Origin: Melioribacteraceae bacterium
GTDB taxonomy: Bacteria > Bacteroidota > Ignavibacteria > Ignavibacteriales > Melioribacteraceae
NCBI GenBank assembly: GCA_021647785.1
Contig: JAKIUC010000008.1
Location: forward strand, 1 to 64,000
DNA: 64,000 bases
Direction of reading: 5' to 3'
Shown here: in pieces, positions 1,523 through 11,181 of the stretch
Position numbering within the stretch: position 1 is the stretch's first letter
Layout: the number at the start of each line of letters is the position of its first letter
Notes under the pieces: model-generated
What the model was told of the DNA's origin: nothing
Databases searched by the model: none
What the model saw: only the letters and a program-made list of their open reading frames with translations
Position numbers and translations under genes: made by a program

Positions 1523-3673
1523 TCAAACAATTGCAGATACATTTCCGCTTTCTTTTACAAATAGACAGGATGATCTAGTTAACTCAGCAGTTTCATGCAT
1601 CATTTTGAAGGGGATATTATCTCCAATTCCCATAATATTAATATCGGCACGTGGTGCATTTTTTAGTGCGGTTTTATAATCACCAACAAGCACGTGAAAT
1701 TCCGACAGAGCAGGCAATCGAGTTTGGTCACTTAATCTATTCAAAAATTTATTTAACCTACCAACATCTTCTTTGCTATCTGCAACAGTTACTAAGTTTA
1801 TTTTACCATCCCAATTAAGTTGTAGTTGCAGAGCTATTAAAACGGTTAAATGCCAATTAGGCGATTTATCACGTAGCCAAATATTAACATCCTTCTGCAT
1901 TCCAAAAGCTACACGTGGGTGTTGTCGTAAAATTAAAACACTCAATTCATTTTTAGTTGCAATTTCAACCAGAGTGGAGATATTTATATCTTTTCGTGAA
2001 TCGGAGCCAATAGTTAAAAATAGAGTGTTTGGTCTAAAGGAACCACCGCGTAATGTTTGTATCACTATTTTTGCTCCGTGAATAAAATCGTGTTCTTCAA
2101 TAACTGTCGAGTTCACAAGAACATCTTCATCATAGATTGGTTTTAGTAATTCCTTTAAAGAGTTATCATGTATATCAATCTCTTTATCCTTAACTGAAAA
2201 GGCAAAAATTGAACCTGCGGGATATGTGACATTGCGAATAAATAATAATGGACCAGACCACTCTGCCGGATTTTCGATTGGGAGCAATATATCAGGCTTC
2301 CAAACTACTTGGTGTTTAGGGAATTTATTAGCAATGTGCGAAGCTCTCTCGGCAATTGCAAGGAACATTCCTCCACGGATATCACCCAAATTTGATTTTA
2401 ACCCTTGACGTGTTAAATAGATATAGATAGCAATAATTGTAAGTATAGCTATTAATCCAAAAATTGGATTAATTAAAAACATTATAAACATTGAACCAGT
2501 AAAACCAATAAGTGGTACAAATTTCGGAATTTTAAAAGTTGGTCTGAAGCTAATAAGATTCATGCTTTGCTGAATATAAACTACTAAATTCAATATTCCG
2601 TACGTTACCAAAAAGAACATTGTTATAAGTGTTGCAAGTGTATTAAAATCACCAAGCAGTAGAGGAATAAGAATTAGAAATGCAGTAAAAATAATAGCAT
2701 TTCTCGGCTCACCACTTTTCGATTTTTTAGTGAAAAATTTTGGAAATGGAATTGTATGATTTGCAGCAAGTGCCTCAATAATTCGCGGAGCACCAACCAT
2801 GCCTCCTAAAGCAGATGAAAATGTTGCAGCAAGAATACCGATTGTTACTAAAAACCCCCAACGTGCTTTCACAACCATAATCATTTGGTTAGCTCGTAAT
2901 TCCTCGGGAGTTGCAATAACAGATAACACATAAGCCAACCCGATATAGATTACCATTGTTACAAATATTGCTGCCATTGTTCCCTGAGGTATTGCTTTAC
3001 GTGGGTTTGCTAAATCGCCAGAGAGATTTGCTCCTGCCATAATTCCGGTTACTGCAGGAAAGAAGACAGCAAAGACCTGCCAAAAACTAGCATCCTCAAA
3101 TTTTCCAATTAAATCTATATTTGAAGTAAATTCAACAGGAGCTAAAAAGATTGAGACCAACGAAAGAAAGATTACAGCCATTATAAAATATTGGATTCTA
3201 ATAGCAAAGATTGTGCTTATATATGAGATTGATAGCAAAATAACCCACGTGGATATTGCTATAATTTCGGGGGAGTGCTGCGGAAAAATAAGTAACCAAC
3301 CTTCAGTAAACCCTGCTATATATAGAGCAGATGATAGTGCCTGCGAAATATAGAATGGAATACCAATACTTCCGCCTGCTTCTAAACCTAATGATTTTGA
3401 GATTATTGAGTATGCACCACCAACACCAATTTTTATATTTGTGGTCATTGATGACATTGAAAGCCCAGTAGCAATTGTAATAAATTTTGCAAGTAAAATT
3501 ATTAATATTGCTCCAAGTAGCCCTGCATTTCCAACCACCCAACCAAGACGCAAATACATTATTACACCAAGTATTGTAAGAACATCTGGTGTAAATACAC
3601 CTCCAAAAGCACTTAGCTTTCCATTTTGTTTATGCTTAAACTGAGCAAAAAATTTTGTAATAATATTTTTCAT
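1523..3673 (-). CDS. SLC12-like cation-chloride cotransporter (APC superfamily)
   Basis: A 716-residue membrane protein. Residues about 20-470 form roughly 12 hydrophobic helices of the amino-acid/cation-chloride cotransporter fold. The start, GGVFTPDVLTILGVIMYLRL, is typical of bacterial Na-K-Cl/K-Cl relatives, and the GGAYSIISKSLGLEAGG stretch fits helix 3. Residues about 480-716 form a soluble C-terminal domain like the regulatory tail of SLC12 proteins. It probably moves chloride with potassium and/or sodium; the ions cannot be read from the sequence. It is the second gene after the cNMP/STAS gene, 20 bases downstream on the same strand, which suggests co-transcription and possibly control of the transporter by that protein. 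Alternative: an amino-acid permease, less likely because of the long tail. Confidence 0.85.
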   Translation of the reverse strand: MKNIITKFFAQFKHKQNGKLSAFGGVFTPDVLTILGVIMYLRLGWVVGNAGLLGAILIILLAKFITIATGLSMSSMTTNIKIGVGGAYSIISKSLGLEAGGSIGIPFYISQALSSALYIAGFTEGWLLIFPQHSPEIIAISTWVILLSISYISTIFAIRIQYFIMAVIFLSLVSIFLAPVEFTSNIDLIGKFEDASFWQVFAVFFPAVTGIMAGANLSGDLANPRKAIPQGTMAAIFVTMVIYIGLAYVLSVIATPEELRANQMIMVVKARWGFLVTIGILAATFSSALGGMVGAPRIIEALAANHTIPFPKFFTKKSKSGEPRNAIIFTAFLILIPLLLGDFNTLATLITMFFLVTYGILNLVVYIQQSMNLISFRPTFKIPKFVPLIGFTGSMFIMFLINPIFGLIAILTIIAIYIYLTRQGLKSNLGDIRGGMFLAIAERASHIANKFPKHQVVWKPDILLPIENPAEWSGPLLFIRNVTYPAGSIFAFSVKDKEIDIHDNSLKELLKPIYDEDVLVNSTVIEEHDFIHGAKIVIQTLRGGSFRPNTLFLTIGSDSRKDINISTLVEIATKNELSVLILRQHPRVAFGMQKDVNIWLRDKSPNWHLTVLIALQLQLNWDGKINLVTVADSKEDVGRLNKFLNRLSDQTRLPALSEFHVLVGDYKTALKNAPRADINIMGIGDNIPFKMMHETAELTRSSCLFVKESGNVSAIV

Positions 3674-3693
3674 AAAAGAATTACTAATGAATA

Positions 3694-6375
3694 CTACTCA
3701 TTATAAAAGTGATGAAAAGATTCGTTAAGATTTTCTTCTAATGTAAATACTCTATCTAACCCCGAAAGGATAAAAGTTGTAGTAGTCATTTTTGAAAGTT
3801 CAACAATCACTTTCATTTCTCGATCGTTTCGTCTTAATTGTTTAAGAAATGAGACCATAACACCTAGAAAAGTTGAATCTAAAAAATCGGAATAAGAGAC
3901 ATCCAAAATTATTTTTTTACTATTTTCTTCAAATACGTCATTTAAAAATGTTTTAAACTGAATAGCCTTATCAGATGTGCATCTTACAAGATTAACAAGT
4001 ACTATCGAAATAAAATCGTATTTAAAATGCTGGAAATTTTTTGTTGTATCACGGTCAATGTTAAAACCAGCAGGAAGTTGTGGCGAAGTATCTTCTTTAA
4101 ACACATGTGTTGGTGCAGCTTCTACTTCCGGAGTTGAGAGATTTTTATTTTCGATATCTTTTCTCTCTTCATCTAATTTCCTCATCTCAACATTAACTTC
4201 ATCTTTATTGAAATCAATTTGATTTTTCTCTTGTGTATAATTTTCTTGCTGGGATATTTTTGATTTTAAAATATTTTTGCGTTCAATTATTAAATCTTTC
4301 TCTCTTTGCTCCAAAACTTCTGCTTCCTGCTGCAACATTTTTTCAGAATAGATTCGCTCTTTTTCAATTTCAGCTTCGCGAGCTGCAAGTTCTTTCTCTT
4401 TCTTTTCAAGAAGTGTCATTTGCATATGGAGAGTTTCAGAAGAAAGAGATTCCTTTCTTTCAAGATCCAAAGCTTTTTGCTTTAATGTTTTTTCCAATTC
4501 GTAAATATCTTGCTCTTTATTAATAGCAGAATCAAGTTCATCTTTTTTCTCTGCAAGTTCTTTTAATTTAATCTCTAATTCTCTCTCTGTATCAAACTTT
4601 TCCCGTTTAAACATTTCTTCTTTTTCACTCAATTCAGTTTCAAACTGAGAGAGTTTTTCATCGTTCGAGAGATTTTCATTTAGGTCATTCTGCTTCTTTT
4701 CAAGTTCCAAAAATCTATCTTCAAGCTCGCTTTTTTCACTCTCAAAGTTCTCTTTTTTCTTTTCAAATTCTGCTTTAGCATTTTCGAAATCTAATTGGCT
4801 CTGATTTAATTCAGACAAATTAAGCTCTTCAATTTTTAGTTCATCTTGCTTTGTTCTTAGTAGTTTTTCGGTCTCTTCCTTTTCTAATTCTAATTCACGT
4901 GCTCTTTCTTCAAGTTCTTGCTCAAACTTAGCTAATTTTTCTTCCTTCGATAAATTTTTACTAAGCTCCTCTTCCTTCTCTAAGAAAAATTGTTTCCGTT
5001 CCTCTTGTTCAATCCTAATCTTTTCTTTTTCGCTCTCTAAATCTTCAAGTTTGGAATTTAATTCTTGCTCAAGTTCAGTAAGAGATTCTTCCTTTTTTAT
5101 AACATCATTAAATTTATTTCGCTTCTCTTCTAATGCTTTTATTTTATCTTCAAACTCCGATTCCATCCTAATGCGTTCTTCATCAAAAATTTTCTCGCGT
5201 AGTTTTAACTTTTGTTCATAATTATCAAGTTCGGAAGCCTTAGTCGTTAAAGATTCCTCTTTCTTTATTGCATTCTCAATAGCAATTTTTTTATCTTCAA
5301 TCTCTTTGAACTTATCATTAAGTTCTTGCTCTTTCCGCTCAAGTTCAATCTTTGATGATTCATTCTTTTTAACAATTTCACGTTCTTTATCAAATTCTTT
5401 TAATCTATGATTTAATTCTACTTCCTTCTGAATTAATTCTTTCTCTTTCTCTAAAATTTCATCAACATATTTTGCCTGGGTAGATACTTCTTTAGCTTGC
5501 TTCATTAACTCAATCTCTTTTAAAGCCAATTCTTTTGCTTTCTCTATTGAGCTGCTTAATAGCAATTTATCTTCTTCAATTGCTTTTGCTTTCTTCTCTA
5601 AATCTTCCTCTTTCTCTTTTAATGCTTTTAATTCCCCTTTAAGAGTTTTTTCTGCAAAAGATTTCTCTTTCTCCAGCGATTCCTCATTTAATATAATTGA
5701 TTGCTCTTTTTTCTCTAACTCAGCAAGTTCATCTTTAAGCGTCTGCTCAGCAAACCTTTTTTCATTAGTAAGAGATTCCATTAGCGTATTAAGTTCATTC
5801 TCTTTTTTACTTAATTCATTGAATCTATTTTCAATCTCTTTCTCTGCTATTCCTTTTTTGTTAACTATCTCTGCTTGTATTCTATCATACTCTTTCTCCG
5901 AAATATCCTTGTTCAAATTCTCATCAATATTAATAAAATTAGGAATCTTCTTCTCTACTTTTTTCTCTTTACTCCTTTTGGATTTTAAGGGGAAGTGGAT
6001 ATTCTTTTTAAGATTATCAATAATATTCCAGTCTTTAACAATGAGATTATTTAACTCATCCATTGAAATTTGAACAATTTTTGCCTCAGATAAAACAACT
6101 GCTCTCGATTTTCTTGTAATTGAATAGTAGTGTTCATCATAGCCAAAAAAATCACCAGCGGATAAAACTATAGAACTTGAGCTATTCGGTTCCAACTCTT
6201 GATAACTAATAAGGTTTATTTCTCCTTCAAGAATTAAGAAAATACTTGTTGATGAATCGTTCTCGCGGAAGACTGTTTTCCCCTCAGAAAATATTAAGCT
6301 TTGGAGTTGAAGCTCATTTAAACTATGCTCACTAAACTGCGTTCCTCTAAATAATTGATTTTGGTGTAATAACAT
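3694..6375 (-). CDS. cNMP-binding / long coiled-coil / STAS domain protein
   Basis: An 893-residue protein from ATG 6375; an in-frame TTG four codons upstream is possible, but GGA lies about 7 bases before the ATG. Residues about 15-125 form a cyclic-nucleotide-binding-type beta roll (FSEGKTVFRENDSSTSIFLI, then LSAGDFFGYDE). Residues about 160-740 are almost unbroken charged coiled coil (E, K, L rich) with internal repeats such as FAEQTLKDELAELEKKE and FAEKTLKGELKALKEKE. Residues about 785-893 form a STAS domain (ILDVSYSDFLDSTFLGVMV); Ser834/Thr835 fill the place phosphorylated in anti-sigma antagonists. No membrane segment is seen. It is the first gene of a two-gene unit with the transporter. 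The role is unknown: a scaffold or long-range sensor is an inference. Confidence 0.8.
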   Translation of the reverse strand: MLLHQNQLFRGTQFSEHSLNELQLQSLIFSEGKTVFRENDSSTSIFLILEGEINLISYQELEPNSSSSIVLSAGDFFGYDEHYYSITRKSRAVVLSEAKIVQISMDELNNLIVKDWNIIDNLKKNIHFPLKSKRSKEKKVEKKIPNFINIDENLNKDISEKEYDRIQAEIVNKKGIAEKEIENRFNELSKKENELNTLMESLTNEKRFAEQTLKDELAELEKKEQSIILNEESLEKEKSFAEKTLKGELKALKEKEEDLEKKAKAIEEDKLLLSSSIEKAKELALKEIELMKQAKEVSTQAKYVDEILEKEKELIQKEVELNHRLKEFDKEREIVKKNESSKIELERKEQELNDKFKEIEDKKIAIENAIKKEESLTTKASELDNYEQKLKLREKIFDEERIRMESEFEDKIKALEEKRNKFNDVIKKEESLTELEQELNSKLEDLESEKEKIRIEQEERKQFFLEKEEELSKNLSKEEKLAKFEQELEERARELELEKEETEKLLRTKQDELKIEELNLSELNQSQLDFENAKAEFEKKKENFESEKSELEDRFLELEKKQNDLNENLSNDEKLSQFETELSEKEEMFKREKFDTERELEIKLKELAEKKDELDSAINKEQDIYELEKTLKQKALDLERKESLSSETLHMQMTLLEKKEKELAAREAEIEKERIYSEKMLQQEAEVLEQREKDLIIERKNILKSKISQQENYTQEKNQIDFNKDEVNVEMRKLDEERKDIENKNLSTPEVEAAPTHVFKEDTSPQLPAGFNIDRDTTKNFQHFKYDFISIVLVNLVRCTSDKAIQFKTFLNDVFEENSKKIILDVSYSDFLDSTFLGVMVSFLKQLRRNDREMKVIVELSKMTTTTFILSGLDRVFTLEENLNESFHHFYNE

Positions 6376-6736
6376 ACTAAATTCCAAAATTAGTTTAACG
6401 ATTTAATAAAAATAGTAAAATTGTAAATTCAAAAATAATGCTTTTTATTGAAATAATGAAAGTAATGATTAAAAGTTGTAGTTCAAAGGGATTTGCAGTA
6501 GTGCCTTTATTTTAATAACATAAAGGGCTTTTAGAAGAACACAATTAAGGTTAAAATCAAAATTCGTAATAGATAAGTGAAAAAATTATAATATATCAAA
6601 AAAAAGTATTATATTTACTATCAATATATAACGAGTTACTTTTATCTCTTTATTGTATATCAACATATATTAGAAATAAAATACTCAAAAATTATTGTTT
6701 ACAACTACATTGAAATTTTAACGGAAGAGGTAGTTT
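6376..6736. other. Divergent intergenic region: promoters for the STAS unit and the hydrogenase operon
   Basis: About 360 AT-rich bases between two divergently transcribed units, so promoters for both should lie here. No clean -35/-10 pair was resolved. TATCAA occurs three times as direct repeats (6594-6599, 6619-6624, 6658-6663) ahead of hydB; it could be an operator or chance in AT-rich DNA. No FNR-type palindrome was found. Confidence 0.4.
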
Positions 6737-7807
6737 ATGAGCAGTACCGATGTGAAATCAAGATTGGAATCATTCAATTGCTATTATTTTGATAAAGATG
6801 TAACACAAAAATTTATCTCTTTCTTAATGAAGAAGGGAGATGTAATTGCCCCTCATAAAACTGGTGAGCTTTCTTATAAATATGAAATAGTTAGTGATGC
6901 TACTGAAGTGGTACTCAATTATAGTAGAACAATCTTACCGTTGAAAAAAGCTTTTATGCCCCCACGCGAGACTTTAATAAATTTTAATATTAAGAATAAC
7001 CAATATACAAAACCACAGATTAGTACTGAGCCAAAGATATTTTTTGGTATTCACTCCTATGAGATGCAATCAATTAAACGGTTGGATTACTCTTTTATAA
7101 CAGGTCTGCCAGAATCAAATTATCTTACTCGCCGTGAAAACTGTAAGTTCATTGGAGTAGCTTATAAACCGGATGAGTGGCACTTTGCCGGCTCTGTTGG
7201 AATTGACATAAATGAGACTGATGGATTTTGTCTCTATTTTTATCCCGCTAAAAATGGTTACATAGTTTTTGAAATTACAGATGAAGGAAAAAATCTTTTA
7301 GATGAATTTGGTGAAGGGAGTGAAGTAACCGATGAATATCTTAAACTAAATGAAGATAAATTTCAAGCAAAAATTAAATTTCATCACAATAGAATTCCTG
7401 AAATATTTACACATGTATATAATTCAAAAGTATGGGAAGATGTAGCACAAAAATGTGTTGGCTGCGGAACATGTAATCTGCTATGCTCTACGTGCTATTG
7501 CTATGATGTACATGATGAAATTGAATTAGATGTCGAAAACGGGCAGCGAGACCGCTTTTGGGATGGTTGTATGTTAAATAAATTTGCCGAAGTTGCAGGC
7601 GGAGAGAATTTCCGCGATAATTTGGGCAGCCGCAATAGACATAGATTGTATAGAAAATTTAAATACATTACAAATCAATCGGATAAACTTCATTGTGTTG
7701 GCTGCGGCAGATGTTCACGCTATTGCCCGGCAAATATTAGTTTGGTAGAAATTGTGAATGATCTAATTGATGATTATACAAAACAGCAGCAAAAAGAGAT
7801 TCTATAG
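6737..7807 (+). CDS. hydB: Group 3b [NiFe] hydrogenase (sulfhydrogenase) beta subunit, iron-sulfur protein
   Basis: A 356-residue cytoplasmic electron-transfer subunit. Cysteines 240, 243, 246 and 250 (CVGCGTCNLLC, followed by TCYC) and 320, 323, 326 and 330 (CVGCGRCSRYC, followed by P) form two [4Fe-4S] sites, as in HydB and the related sulfite-reductase subunit AsrA. In the family it passes electrons between the small subunit and the flavoprotein HydG. The start is well supported by GGAAGAGG a few bases upstream of ATG 6737. It is the first gene of the run hydB-hydG-hydD-hydA-protease. The central GIHSYEMQS differs from the usual GVRACDLAA-type segment of the family. Confidence 0.92.
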   Translation: MSSTDVKSRLESFNCYYFDKDVTQKFISFLMKKGDVIAPHKTGELSYKYEIVSDATEVVLNYSRTILPLKKAFMPPRETLINFNIKNNQYTKPQISTEPKIFFGIHSYEMQSIKRLDYSFITGLPESNYLTRRENCKFIGVAYKPDEWHFAGSVGIDINETDGFCLYFYPAKNGYIVFEITDEGKNLLDEFGEGSEVTDEYLKLNEDKFQAKIKFHHNRIPEIFTHVYNSKVWEDVAQKCVGCGTCNLLCSTCYCYDVHDEIELDVENGQRDRFWDGCMLNKFAEVAGGENFRDNLGSRNRHRLYRKFKYITNQSDKLHCVGCGRCSRYCPANISLVEIVNDLIDDYTKQQQKEIL

Positions 7808-7822
7808 TATTGAGAGGAATAG

Positions 7823-8662
7823 ATGGAAAACTTAATTTTTGAGAAAAAGGATTTATACAACCCAATAATATCAACAATTACAAATGTTGAGCAGTTAACC
7901 GATACAGAAAAGAGATTTGAAATTGCTTTACCAGAGAACCAAATCTTAAATCATAAACCTGGTCAGTTTGTTCAAGTTTCAATTTTTGGTTTTGGCGAAG
8001 CTCCTATTTCAATAAGCTCATCCCCAACAAAATCACCTTTGTTTGATCTAACAGTACGTAATGCCGGAAGATTAACGGATAAAATGCACAGATTAACTGT
8101 CGGAAGTCAACTTGGGGTTAGAGGTCCATTTGGTAATGGTTTTGAGGTAAACAATTTTAAGGGAAAAGATATTTTATTTGTTTGTGGAGGAATAGGGTTA
8201 GCACCTACAAAATCTTTAATAGACTATGTTCTGGCAAATAGGAACGACTTTGGACGTGTGGTTATTTTGTATGGCACAAAGTCACCATCAGAAATTTTAT
8301 TTTCAGATGAAATTGAAAAGTGGAAAAAAGATAAGAGTGTTGAACTTGAAATTTCTATTGATAGACCAGATGAAAACTGGAAAGGAAAAGTTGGTGTAAT
8401 AACAACTCTAATTCCTCCATTAAAACTAGATGTAGCCAACACCATTGCAACTATTGTTGGACCGCCAGTAATGTACAAATTTGTGTTAATGGCATTAAAG
8501 GGGAAACGAGTTCCGGACGAAAATATCTATCTCTCTTTAGAAAGAAGAATGAAGTGCGGTGTGGGAAAATGTGGACACTGCCAAATTAATGATACTTATG
8601 TTTGCCAGGATGGTCCTGTATTTCATTACCCGCGTGTTAAAGAATTAAAGGAGGCAGTATGA
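7823..8662 (+). CDS. hydG: Group 3b hydrogenase gamma subunit, FAD/NAD(P)-binding reductase
   Basis: A 279-residue flavoprotein of the ferredoxin-NADP reductase fold. Residues about 15-105 are the FAD domain (GQFVQVS, then APISISS), about 110-225 the NAD(P) domain (LFVCGGIGLAPTKS), and Cys245, 250, 253 and 261 (CGVGKCGHC ... C) bind a [2Fe-2S] cluster as in dihydroorotate dehydrogenase B. It links H2 to NAD(P)H. Spacing to hydB is 15 bases; its TGA overlaps the ATG of hydD (ATGA), which suggests translational coupling. Confidence 0.92.
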   Translation: MENLIFEKKDLYNPIISTITNVEQLTDTEKRFEIALPENQILNHKPGQFVQVSIFGFGEAPISISSSPTKSPLFDLTVRNAGRLTDKMHRLTVGSQLGVRGPFGNGFEVNNFKGKDILFVCGGIGLAPTKSLIDYVLANRNDFGRVVILYGTKSPSEILFSDEIEKWKKDKSVELEISIDRPDENWKGKVGVITTLIPPLKLDVANTIATIVGPPVMYKFVLMALKGKRVPDENIYLSLERRMKCGVGKCGHCQINDTYVCQDGPVFHYPRVKELKEAV

Positions 8663-9393
8663 GTAAACCAAAAATTGCTTTTTTCGATTTTACAAGTTGT
8701 GAAGGTTGCCAATTAAATAAATTAAATTTAGAAAATGATTTATTAGACTTATTAGAATTAGTGGATATTGTAGAATTCCGGGAAGCTATGGATGATAAAG
8801 CTGATGAATATGATATTGCGTTTATTGAAGGAAGCATAAGTACACCAACCTGCATAACTCGCATTCATGATATAAGAAGAAGAACAAAAATTCTCGTTGC
8901 TTTGGGTGCATGTGCTGTGCAGGGTGGAATAAATGCTATTAAAAATCAGCATTCGGCTGACTGGGTAAAAGAAACAGTTTATGGAGAGGATAAATATTTG
9001 TTCCCTTCAATTCCGGTTCAACCAATAAGTGCAGTTGTAAAAGTAGATTATGAAGTGCGCGGATGCCCAATGAGTACACCTGAATTTTTACATGTTTTGA
9101 AATCATTAATCCTTAATAGAAAACCGGAAATATTTGACCATGCTGTTTGTGTTGAATGTAAGTTGAAAGAAAACGAGTGTGTACTTGATAAAGGAATGTT
9201 TTGCCTTGGTCCCATTACACGGGCAGGCTGCGATGCTATTTGCCCAACTTTCGGACAGTACTGCACTGGCTGCAGAGGAGTGGTTTCAAATATAAATAAA
9301 AACGGTGCTGTTGAAATGCTTAAGCAACATGGCTTCTCAACAAAAGAAGCATTAAATAGAATGAAAATGTTTTGCACACTTGAGCTAGAATAA
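8659..9393 (+). CDS. hydD: Group 3b [NiFe] hydrogenase delta (small) subunit
   Basis: A 244-residue small subunit of the F420-nonreducing/sulfhydrogenase type. The N-terminal TSCEGCQ, the later GACAVQGG and the RGCPMSTPE segment carry the cysteines of the proximal [4Fe-4S] cluster. Further cysteines towards the end (CVECKLKENEC, FCLGPITRAGC, CPTFGQYCTGCRG) would hold the medial and distal clusters. There is no twin-arginine signal, so it is cytoplasmic. It starts inside the stop codon of hydG and is followed 20 bases later by the large subunit. Confidence 0.93.
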   Translation: MSKPKIAFFDFTSCEGCQLNKLNLENDLLDLLELVDIVEFREAMDDKADEYDIAFIEGSISTPTCITRIHDIRRRTKILVALGACAVQGGINAIKNQHSADWVKETVYGEDKYLFPSIPVQPISAVVKVDYEVRGCPMSTPEFLHVLKSLILNRKPEIFDHAVCVECKLKENECVLDKGMFCLGPITRAGCDAICPTFGQYCTGCRGVVSNINKNGAVEMLKQHGFSTKEALNRMKMFCTLELE

Positions 9394-9413
9394 AATCTGT
9401 AAGTGGAGAAATT

Positions 9414-10718
9414 ATGCGTAAAAATTTAGATATCGATGTTCATCATTTAACAAGAGTTGAAGGACATGGAAATATTGTTGTGAATATGAAAGAGGGCGTT
9501 TTAGAGAAAGCACAGTTGGAGATTGTTGAAGCACCCCGTTTTTTTGAAGCAATTTTAAAAGGACGTAATTTTCATGAAGTAGCTATAATTACTTCAAGAA
9601 TTTGCGGAATTTGCTCATTGGGTCATCAATTAACTTCTTTAAAAGCTACCGAAGATGCACTGGGGCTTGACATAACCCGACAAACAGAATTATTGCGAAG
9701 AATACTTGTAGATGGTGCTACATTCCAGAGCAATACTTTACATTCACTTTTTTTGGCTGCACCCGATTATTTAGATGTCGGTTCGGTTTTTCCATTAATT
9801 AATACACATAAAGATGTTGTACTTGCAGCCTTAAGATTAAAAAGAATAGCAAATGAGATAGGTGAATTAATTAGCGGAAGAGCAGTTCATCCAATTGCAT
9901 GTGTTCCAGGAGGCTTCACTCAAATTCCATCAGCAAAAAACTTATTAGCACTTAAGAATAAACTTGTAAATGAAGCAATACCTGATGCAGAATTTATAGT
10001 TGATGTTATTGCATCGTTAGTAGAAAAAATTCCGGTATTTAGTAGAGAGACTGAATATATAAGTGTAAAAAGTGAGAAAGAATATGGCTTGTATGATGGT
10101 GATATTTATTCTTCAGATAGCGGAAGTTATAAGGTGAATCAATATCTTGAAATCACAAACGAATTTGTAGTTCCACATTCATCCGGCAAACATGCTAAAT
10201 TTAACCGAAGTTCATACATGGTTGGTGCTTTAGCACGCTTTAATAATAGCCATAATCAATTAAACCCTTTGGCAAAAGCTGCTGCCGAAAAACTTGGTTT
10301 GAAAGCACCAAATTATAATCCATATATGAATACTATTGCACAAGTTGTGGAGATAGCTCACTGTATTGCAAGTTCAATAGAGCTAATAGATACATTACTT
10401 GATGAAGGTCTTAAAAATGAAAAACCAAATCAAGAACCAACCAAGTATGGAAGGGGTTTTGGTTTAACCGAAGTTCCACGCGGAATTTTATTCCATGATT
10501 ATACTTACAATAAGCAGGGAAAAATTGAAAAAGTAAATTGCGTAATTCCGACCGGACAAAACCTTGCAAACATTGATGATGATATGAAAAAATTAGTTCC
10601 TGAAATAATAGAAGAAACTAAAGAACAAATAACACACAAGTTAGAGATGCTTGTACGTGCATACGACCCTTGTATTTCCTGCTCGGTACATGTGTTAAAT
10701 GTGGAGTTTATAGAATAA
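9414..10718 (+). CDS. hydA: Group 3b [NiFe] hydrogenase alpha (large, catalytic) subunit
   Basis: A 434-residue catalytic subunit. The L1 motif RICGICSLGH (Cys64, Cys67) and the L2 motif DPCISCSVH (Cys420, Cys423, His426) supply the four nickel ligands. After His426 a tail of eight residues (VLNVEFIE) remains; in this family such a tail is cut off by a dedicated protease once Ni and Fe are in place, and that protease is the next gene. The N-terminal TRVEGHGN is also standard. It makes or consumes H2 with NAD(P)(H) through hydB and hydG. No Tat signal partner is present. Subgroup 3b is inferred from the BGDA gene order. Confidence 0.95.
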   Translation: MRKNLDIDVHHLTRVEGHGNIVVNMKEGVLEKAQLEIVEAPRFFEAILKGRNFHEVAIITSRICGICSLGHQLTSLKATEDALGLDITRQTELLRRILVDGATFQSNTLHSLFLAAPDYLDVGSVFPLINTHKDVVLAALRLKRIANEIGELISGRAVHPIACVPGGFTQIPSAKNLLALKNKLVNEAIPDAEFIVDVIASLVEKIPVFSRETEYISVKSEKEYGLYDGDIYSSDSGSYKVNQYLEITNEFVVPHSSGKHAKFNRSSYMVGALARFNNSHNQLNPLAKAAAEKLGLKAPNYNPYMNTIAQVVEIAHCIASSIELIDTLLDEGLKNEKPNQEPTKYGRGFGLTEVPRGILFHDYTYNKQGKIEKVNCVIPTGQNLANIDDDMKKLVPEIIEETKEQITHKLEMLVRAYDPCISCSVHVLNVEFIE

Positions 10719-10719
10719 T

Positions 10720-11181
10720 ATGCTAAAAATAATTGGACTCGGAAATTCACTTAGGGGTGATGATGGTATTGGACCCGTAATAATTAATCAATTGGCTGAT
10801 TATAATTTCGCTGATAATGCTGATAATGTTATACTCATTAATGCAGAGTCAGATATTTTTATAATACTTGAGCATATTATTGAAGGGGAACCTATATTGA
10901 TTATTGATTGTGCAAAAATGGGTTTAACTCCAGGTTCCGTAAAGAAGTTTGAAATTAATAAAAAAACAATTTCAACTGTTGATAAGTTTATATCGTTGCA
11001 TGGTTTTGGATTTGGTGAAATTTATAATATGGCTTTAAAGATGGGGAGTGCTGCACCATGTAAAATAATTGGTGTTGAACCGAAATCAATAGAGTTTAAT
11101 TCTCCACTTTCAGATGAAGTTAGAAATTGCATTCCCCAAATAATTAATTTGGTAAACGAGGAGGTTTGTAGCTATGTCTAA
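10720..11181 (+). CDS. Hydrogenase maturation protease (HyaD/HycI family)
   Basis: A 153-residue nickel-dependent endopeptidase. GLGNSLRGDDGIGP (residues about 6-19) holds the metal-binding acidic residue, and IIDCAKMGLTPG and SLHGFGF match the family's second Asp and His positions. It should remove the C-terminal tail of HydA. It begins one base after the hydA stop and overlaps the receiver gene by 8 bases, so the whole set is probably one transcript. Confidence 0.9.
   Translation: MLKIIGLGNSLRGDDGIGPVIINQLADYNFADNADNVILINAESDIFIILEHIIEGEPILIIDCAKMGLTPGSVKKFEINKKTISTVDKFISLHGFGFGEIYNMALKMGSAAPCKIIGVEPKSIEFNSPLSDEVRNCIPQIINLVNEEVCSYV

Follow-up and report, generated by a model that had tools for sequence, protein, structure and literature searches.

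The RsbR proteins carry an N-terminal sensor, a helical linker and a C-terminal STAS domain. RsbV and SpoIIAA are single-domain proteins (PMC8256260). Here we describe a gene whose 893-residue product joins a cNMP-binding-type (CNB) domain to an STAS domain through a long coiled-coil rod. The gene lies at 3694..6375 on the minus strand of a stretch of 64,000 nucleotides from a Melioribacteraceae bacterium (assembly GCA_021647785.1, contig JAKIUC010000008.1, positions 1 to 64,000), which is called the window below, and it is followed by the gene of a prokaryotic cation-chloride cotransporter (CCC).

The rod protein resembles RsbV and SpoIIAA in the sequence of its STAS domain, in the predicted fold and in the phospho-acceptor loop; SpoIIE genes are also present near some of its relatives and RsbW-like kinases are encoded in the genome. 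It differs from them in its length, in the presence of the CNB domain and the coil, and in having no adjacent kinase gene in the window. With RsbR and the stressosome it shares the layout of sensor, helix and STAS domain, but the sensor is a CNB domain, the linker reaches about 2,224 residues among its relatives, and the STAS domain is nearer to RsbV than to RsbS. With the SulP/SLC26 transporters the STAS fold is common, but the rod protein has no membrane domain and the fold match is weaker. In a literature search of titles and abstracts, which left most subscription journals outside its coverage, no CNB-rod-STAS protein was named, and this is no proof of novelty.

On balance we lean towards reading the rod protein as a component of partner switching, that is, as an RsbV/SpoIIAA-like STAS phosphoswitch carried on a rod. 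The N-terminal CNB domain would serve as a sensor, or as a docking and dimerisation module, and the long coiled coil would join it to the STAS domain. Ser834 (or Thr835) may be phosphorylated by an RsbW-type GHKL serine kinase and dephosphorylated by a SpoIIE-type phosphatase. The binding partner of the STAS domain would depend on the phosphorylation state, and the coil would keep the switch some way off from the CNB domain, in an RsbR-like manner. Both enzymes would be drawn from the genome's own set, in which five PF13581 kinases above the cut-off, 13 SpoIIE matches (one of them a 43-residue fragment) and eight STAS matches were found.

Domain architecture of the rod protein

The open reading frame (ORF) begins with ATG at 6375, and an alternative in-frame TTG at 6387 would give a protein of 897 residues. 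In the Pfam scan of the 893 residues there were two matches above the curated cut-offs, PF00027 (residues 29-114, E 1e-8) and PF01740 (residues 805-885, E 4.9e-9). The remaining match at E ≤1 was STAS_2 alone, over the STAS region; no family was matched at this level between the CNB and STAS domains, and no anion-transporter membrane domain was found in the protein. A PADLOC search for anti-phage defence gave no match at E ≤0.01. The set of domains proposed in the earlier note (cNMP-binding domain, coiled coil and STAS domain) was confirmed by Pfam, AlphaFold2, Foldseek and the periodicity of the linker.

The CNB domain comprises residues 1-126 (5998..6375, minus strand). The AlphaFold2 model of residues 1-200 (mean confidence score, pLDDT, 73) has a CNB fold, a low-confidence segment at 127-157 and a helix at 160-199 which runs to the end of the modelled piece, and Foldseek groups this model with GlxR and M. 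tuberculosis CRP; Pfam, model and structural search thus agree on the cNMP-type fold that had been assigned to the N-terminal part. In PKA and CRP the Arg of the FGE...R cassette contacts the phosphate and the Glu contacts the ribose. In the present family the beta-roll fold and the Arg of this cassette are found and the Glu is replaced: the phosphate-cassette Arg (Arg88 in the window protein) is kept in 14/14 aligned CNB sequences, and the Glu has become Tyr in nine of them (Tyr79 in the window protein) and Gln in five, with His at the same position in the CNB domain of genome G158, which was read separately. As the ribose-site Glu is lost in all 14, a nucleotide is no more than a possible ligand of the CNB domain, and the nucleotide control suggested in the earlier note is unproven. 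One class III cyclase is encoded in the window genome. A CNB profile match at E ≤1e-6 was obtained in all 164 genomes of the order, the weaker ones being perhaps ordinary CRP-type proteins.

The coiled-coil rod occupies residues 158 to 740 (4156..5904, minus strand), both boundaries being approximate. Linker residues 151-763 consist to 49% of Glu, Lys, Gln and Arg, with two Pro and two Gly, and contain a run of 501 residues free of Pro and Gly. The hydrophobic periodicity of the linker is 3.49, with a power of 2.28; in 500 shuffles the power averaged 0.73 and never exceeded 1.78. Taken in segments of 84 residues, the heptad signal is clear to about residue 600 and weak beyond; the near-continuous coil of some 580 residues that had been claimed is therefore an upper estimate, unproven at the C-terminal end.

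The CNB-STAS family shows an enormous range of linker length: the shortest linkers have a few tens of residues and the longest about 2,224. By a fixed cut, in which 150 residues are subtracted at the N-terminal end and 130 at the C-terminal end, the linker has 613 residues in the window protein and 2,224 in G006. In the shortest members the matched domains are some 30-40 residues apart (G042 and the second gene of G041). Four giant relatives (L045, L046, L047 and L048) have 1,769-2,504 residues, with a linker periodicity of almost exactly 3.50. Autocorrelation at multiples of 28 residues was detected in the giant linkers of L045-L047 (genomes G005, G006 and G008), and the window's own group has a weaker repeat near 31 residues.

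The STAS domain and its relatives at partner-switch loci

The STAS domain comprises residues 781-893 (3697..4035, minus strand), and residues 740-893 were modelled by AlphaFold2 as an STAS fold (mean pLDDT 80, with the first 16 residues mostly below 50). Its best profile matches among solved structures were TM1081, TM1442 and SpoIIAA, followed by RsbV. Foldseek placed TM1442, RsfB and SpoIIAA first (best 1e-6), and the STAS domains of prestin and SLC26/SulP were weaker by fold (best 3e-4). The top NCBIfam match was the anti-sigma factor antagonist TIGR00377 with 37.8 bits; this is below the cut-off of 53.45, and the protein is hence described as a variant and not as a standard RsbV/SpoIIAA member. 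Judged by sequence and modelled fold, the domain is closest to the anti-sigma-factor antagonists of RsbV/SpoIIAA type and not to SulP, and the analogy with the STAS domains of anion transporters, on which the earlier note had built, was not borne out. A SulP or anion-transporter identity was rejected, since profile, fold and NCBIfam all favour the antagonists; the matches do include two solo proteins with the title 'Sulfate transporter/antisigma-factor antagonist STAS', 3t6o by profile and 4xs5 by fold.

The tripeptide D833-S834-T835 (3871..3879, minus strand) is present in the STAS domain as had been claimed, and it is predicted to be the phospho-acceptor loop. Its counterpart in SpoIIAA is, by alignment, the D-S-S loop with Ser58, a residue discussed in a review (PMC8256260); the equivalence of Ser58 to Ser834 likewise comes from alignment only. 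D-S-T was found in 16/16 aligned sequences, and when seven more were read the motif was DST in 21 and DSS in two of the 23 family members.

The tree of STAS domains was made of 36 rows with a midpoint root; many forks in it are open, it contains long branches and its solo rows were picked by hand, and conclusions were drawn from its named branches only. In this tree the 23 family STAS domains (19 rows labelled CC, with G035 and the split G147 included, and four short CNB-STAS proteins) and eight solo STAS from partner-switch loci form one group (99/96), within which the subfamily of the window gene is a group of ten rows (100/99). Among these eight is a solo STAS of the window genome, on contig C37. 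Five of the six other STAS of the same genome fall outside the 99/96 group, and the sixth (L218) was left out of the tree. The C37 gene belongs to an operon of histidine kinase, NtrC-type regulator, solo STAS and receiver-SpoIIE (kinase end only in the stretch read).

STAS or SpoIIE genes are placed beside the family gene, or clustered with it, at seven of 21 loci (L042, L048, L093, L105, L106, L107 and L109), which span six genera and two families; the loci were searched again with local SpoIIE, RsbW-like and STAS profiles and no further neighbours were found. At L093 (G158, of a second family) the order is histidine kinase, NtrC, STAS, CNB-coil-STAS and receiver-SpoIIE. The CNB-coil-STAS gene of G031 is followed by kinase, regulator and receiver-SpoIIE, and the STAS relative of G035 by two solo STAS, one opposite gene and then again kinase, regulator and receiver-SpoIIE. 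The short CNB-STAS genes adjoin a solo STAS gene (G041, G034) or a SpoIIE phosphatase gene (G042 and the second gene of G041).

Relatives were obtained by an STAS-only alignment, while a whole-protein scan of the genome contigs gave none. Among 79 genomes of the window's family, at least 17 were verified to have the full CNB-linker-STAS architecture (G000, G001, G002, G004, G005, G006, G008, G011, G031, G034, G036, G041, G042, G043, G051, G053 and G070). The CNB domains of L045, L046 and L048 escaped the local hidden Markov models, were found by Pfam and are counted in the 17; outside this count are G003 and G032, where contig ends cut the genes, and G035, in which the related STAS protein is without a CNB domain and has a Pro-rich, non-coil linker. 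In the second family the architecture was verified in at least one of 80 genomes searched (G158); in G147 of the same family, which is not among the 80, the gene is apparently split into two ORFs. Ten of the nearest named loci (L110-L119) are assigned to Melioribacteraceae (three), to Ignavibacteriales, Ignavibacteria or Ignavibacteriae (five) and to Bacteroidetes (two). A separate protein of about 290-300 residues (L041:11508-12380; homologues in L034, L037 and L043) is encoded beside the rod gene or two genes from it in four genomes, and the L041 copy has no Pfam match at E ≤0.001.

Several of these data weigh against a partner switch. The count of at least 17 in 79 genomes is one of them. 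STAS or SpoIIE neighbours were seen at just two of 16 long-linker loci (L048 and L093), the remaining five of the seven being the four short CNB-STAS genes (4/4 of that class) and G035 with its non-coil linker. In the window subfamily of ten genomes no STAS, SpoIIE or RsbW-like gene was found within the stretches read, so that the partner-switch placement there rests on the tree and the motif, and local profiles detected no GHKL kinase or SpoIIE/PP2C phosphatase gene beside the window gene in the stretch read. Moreover the phosphorylation, the kinase and the target are what we infer, as are dimerisation, ligand, partners and output.

The neighbouring cation-chloride cotransporter

The neighbour gene (1523..3673, minus strand) encodes a CCC of 716 residues, in which Pfam finds the permease PF00324 and both C-terminal domains of prokaryotic CCCs, PF21554 and PF21555. 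Its position co-directional with the rod gene and 20 bases downstream was confirmed, the gap between the stop of the STAS gene and the start codon of the CCC being 3674..3693 (minus strand). Terminator-like sites numbered five, against 2.8 (standard deviation 1.7) in shuffles, with none in the 20-base gap, and the two genes are possibly co-transcribed in the window genome. Promoter claims were dropped, as promoter-like sites numbered 20 against 21.2 in shuffles; one 10-of-12 promoter match is located at 3728-3700 (minus strand), just ahead of the CCC.

It may be thought from this arrangement that the rod protein is a transporter regulator: bound to the CCC at its C-terminal domain, it would gate the transporter in response to the CNB ligand or to STAS phosphorylation. 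We consider this unlikely, though several observations speak for it besides the short gap free of terminator-like sites. The CCC is adjacent to the rod gene in the window, G003, G053 and G051 and one gene away in G043 (the intervening gene being for an aldehyde dehydrogenase), in every case co-directional, which makes five of the ten subfamily genomes, in three genera. These are all the subfamily genomes having a CCC of at least 60% identity, and the CCC is the sole recurrent functional neighbour in the subfamily. In all, the link was seen in the window and at four of 21 other loci (three adjacent, one with a gene between); at the rest the CCC is unlinked or there is no close one.

Against such regulation, the other five subfamily genomes keep the rod gene with no CCC above 60% identity at E ≤1e-20 (G001, G002, G004, G011 and G070, with completeness of 99, 100, 94, 81 and 91%, three of them drafts of 81-94%); G004 has a distant CCC of 32% identity. 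In G001 and G002 the flanking gene, for a secreted carboxypeptidase-type protein, is orthologous to that behind the CCC of G003 (66 and 68% identity, full length), which shows the CCC to be missing from the corresponding site; of the flanking protein in the window, only the C-terminal part matches. The rod gene and the CCC are separated by 48 bases in G003, 131 in G053 and 292 in G051. At L054-L065, 12 loci that carry a close CCC and belong to genomes lacking a subfamily gene, no CNB or STAS gene was found; several of these loci are cut by contig ends, and the upstream side of the CCC is visible in ten of the 12. Some of the same genomes do carry a family gene elsewhere, one with a long linker in G005, G006, G008 and G031 and a short one in G034. 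In the CCC tree the linked CCCs are on one side of a modestly supported branch (68/93, unstarred) and are compatible with one origin. Close to the rod gene of G011, G051 and G070 are genes for enolase and glutamine synthetase, which in G062 are found close to the CCC with no rod gene present (identities by Pfam for six of the eight genes, by similarity for the other two). An STAS domain that is not of the SulP type tells in the same direction. The coupling proposed in the earlier note thus survives in that some homologues do neighbour a CCC, and fails in that five subfamily genomes keep the gene without a close one; the link is most likely one of inherited gene order.

Within one genus, the loci L034 and L037 compared with L035 resemble a clean gain or loss of the whole CCC gene. 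On the plus strand of the window, at 6737-11181, a divergent operon encodes a NiFe hydrogenase of sulfhydrogenase type (subunits beta, gamma, delta and alpha) together with a maturation protease. For the subunits the top NCBIfam matches stay below their cut-offs, and the protease has a superfamily match above its own.

Kinase-like relatives, other readings and significance

Sixteen long ORFs with a CNB domain and without STAS were scanned with Pfam; 15 of them end in HATPase_c and 14 of these have GAF. No HisKA domain was found at E ≤0.001 in any of the 15. In 13/13 aligned CNB-GAF-HATPase_c proteins (L003:322-2244 on contig C43 of G000, L090, L092, L096-L104 and L108) the phospho-acceptor His at the H-box position is replaced by Gln, Ser, Asn or Glu, and the ATPase domain looks intact. 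From their sequences, these proteins are possibly a family of His-less, perhaps serine, kinases. The sixteenth ORF (L095:540-4778) has 1,412 residues, in which Pfam sees only an N-terminal CNB domain, and is a CNB-rod protein without known output domain.

The C43 protein, whose next gene is for an isopentenyl-pyrophosphate (IPP) transferase of MiaA type, is like the rod protein in its related CNB domain (FFG motif in this own-genome copy) and its variable linker, but the output of its type is a kinase-like ATPase domain without acceptor His, and that of the rod protein is STAS. It could be imagined that the two types pair via the CNB and rod architecture that they share and that the Ser of the STAS domain is phosphorylated at a distance set by the rod, which would be a new scaffolded partner switch. 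We hold this pairing to be distinctly unlikely; in 15 loci searched for it no CNB-GAF-HATPase gene was found beside an STAS gene, so the link to a kinase is given as a hypothesis only.

The rod may also be structural and organise the cytoplasm or a pole of the cell; its two end domains, CNB and STAS, would then be docking modules and not switches. The great linker lengths would suit this role, as would the near-exact 3.50 periodicity and 28-residue autocorrelation of the giants and the loss of the ribose-site Glu. L046 further gave weak, below-cut-off matches to coil families, the crescentin rod among them, but weak coil matches are expected between unrelated proteins. A purely structural role is quite improbable in our opinion, as the D-S-T/S loop is kept in 23/23 members and the near-linkerless relatives adjoin STAS or SpoIIE genes. 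Very improbable is an RsbR-like shell subunit, in which CNB-STAS proteins and solo STAS proteins (as RsbS equivalents) form a stressosome-like particle with projecting sensor arms: the sensor-helix-STAS architecture and the solo STAS gene adjoining at L042, L093, L105 and L106 would agree with it, but the STAS profile favours RsbV/SpoIIAA-type structures (TM1081, E 7e-16) over RsbS (E 0.0064) and no solo STAS gene is found beside the window gene.

The present locus is also a caution that an STAS domain with an adjacent transporter need not mean transporter regulation. Should the His-less CNB-GAF-HATPase proteins be general, they are candidates for a source of serine kinases within this order. 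Given the rise per residue of a helix, the linker of 2,224 residues would extend for some 330 nm if fully helical, so that rod length has varied between almost nothing and this distance in the course of evolution. If the reading of the rod protein as a partner-switching phosphoswitch is true, partner switching extends to a phosphoswitch at the end of a rod, and the effect of rod length on signalling could be tested directly in this family.

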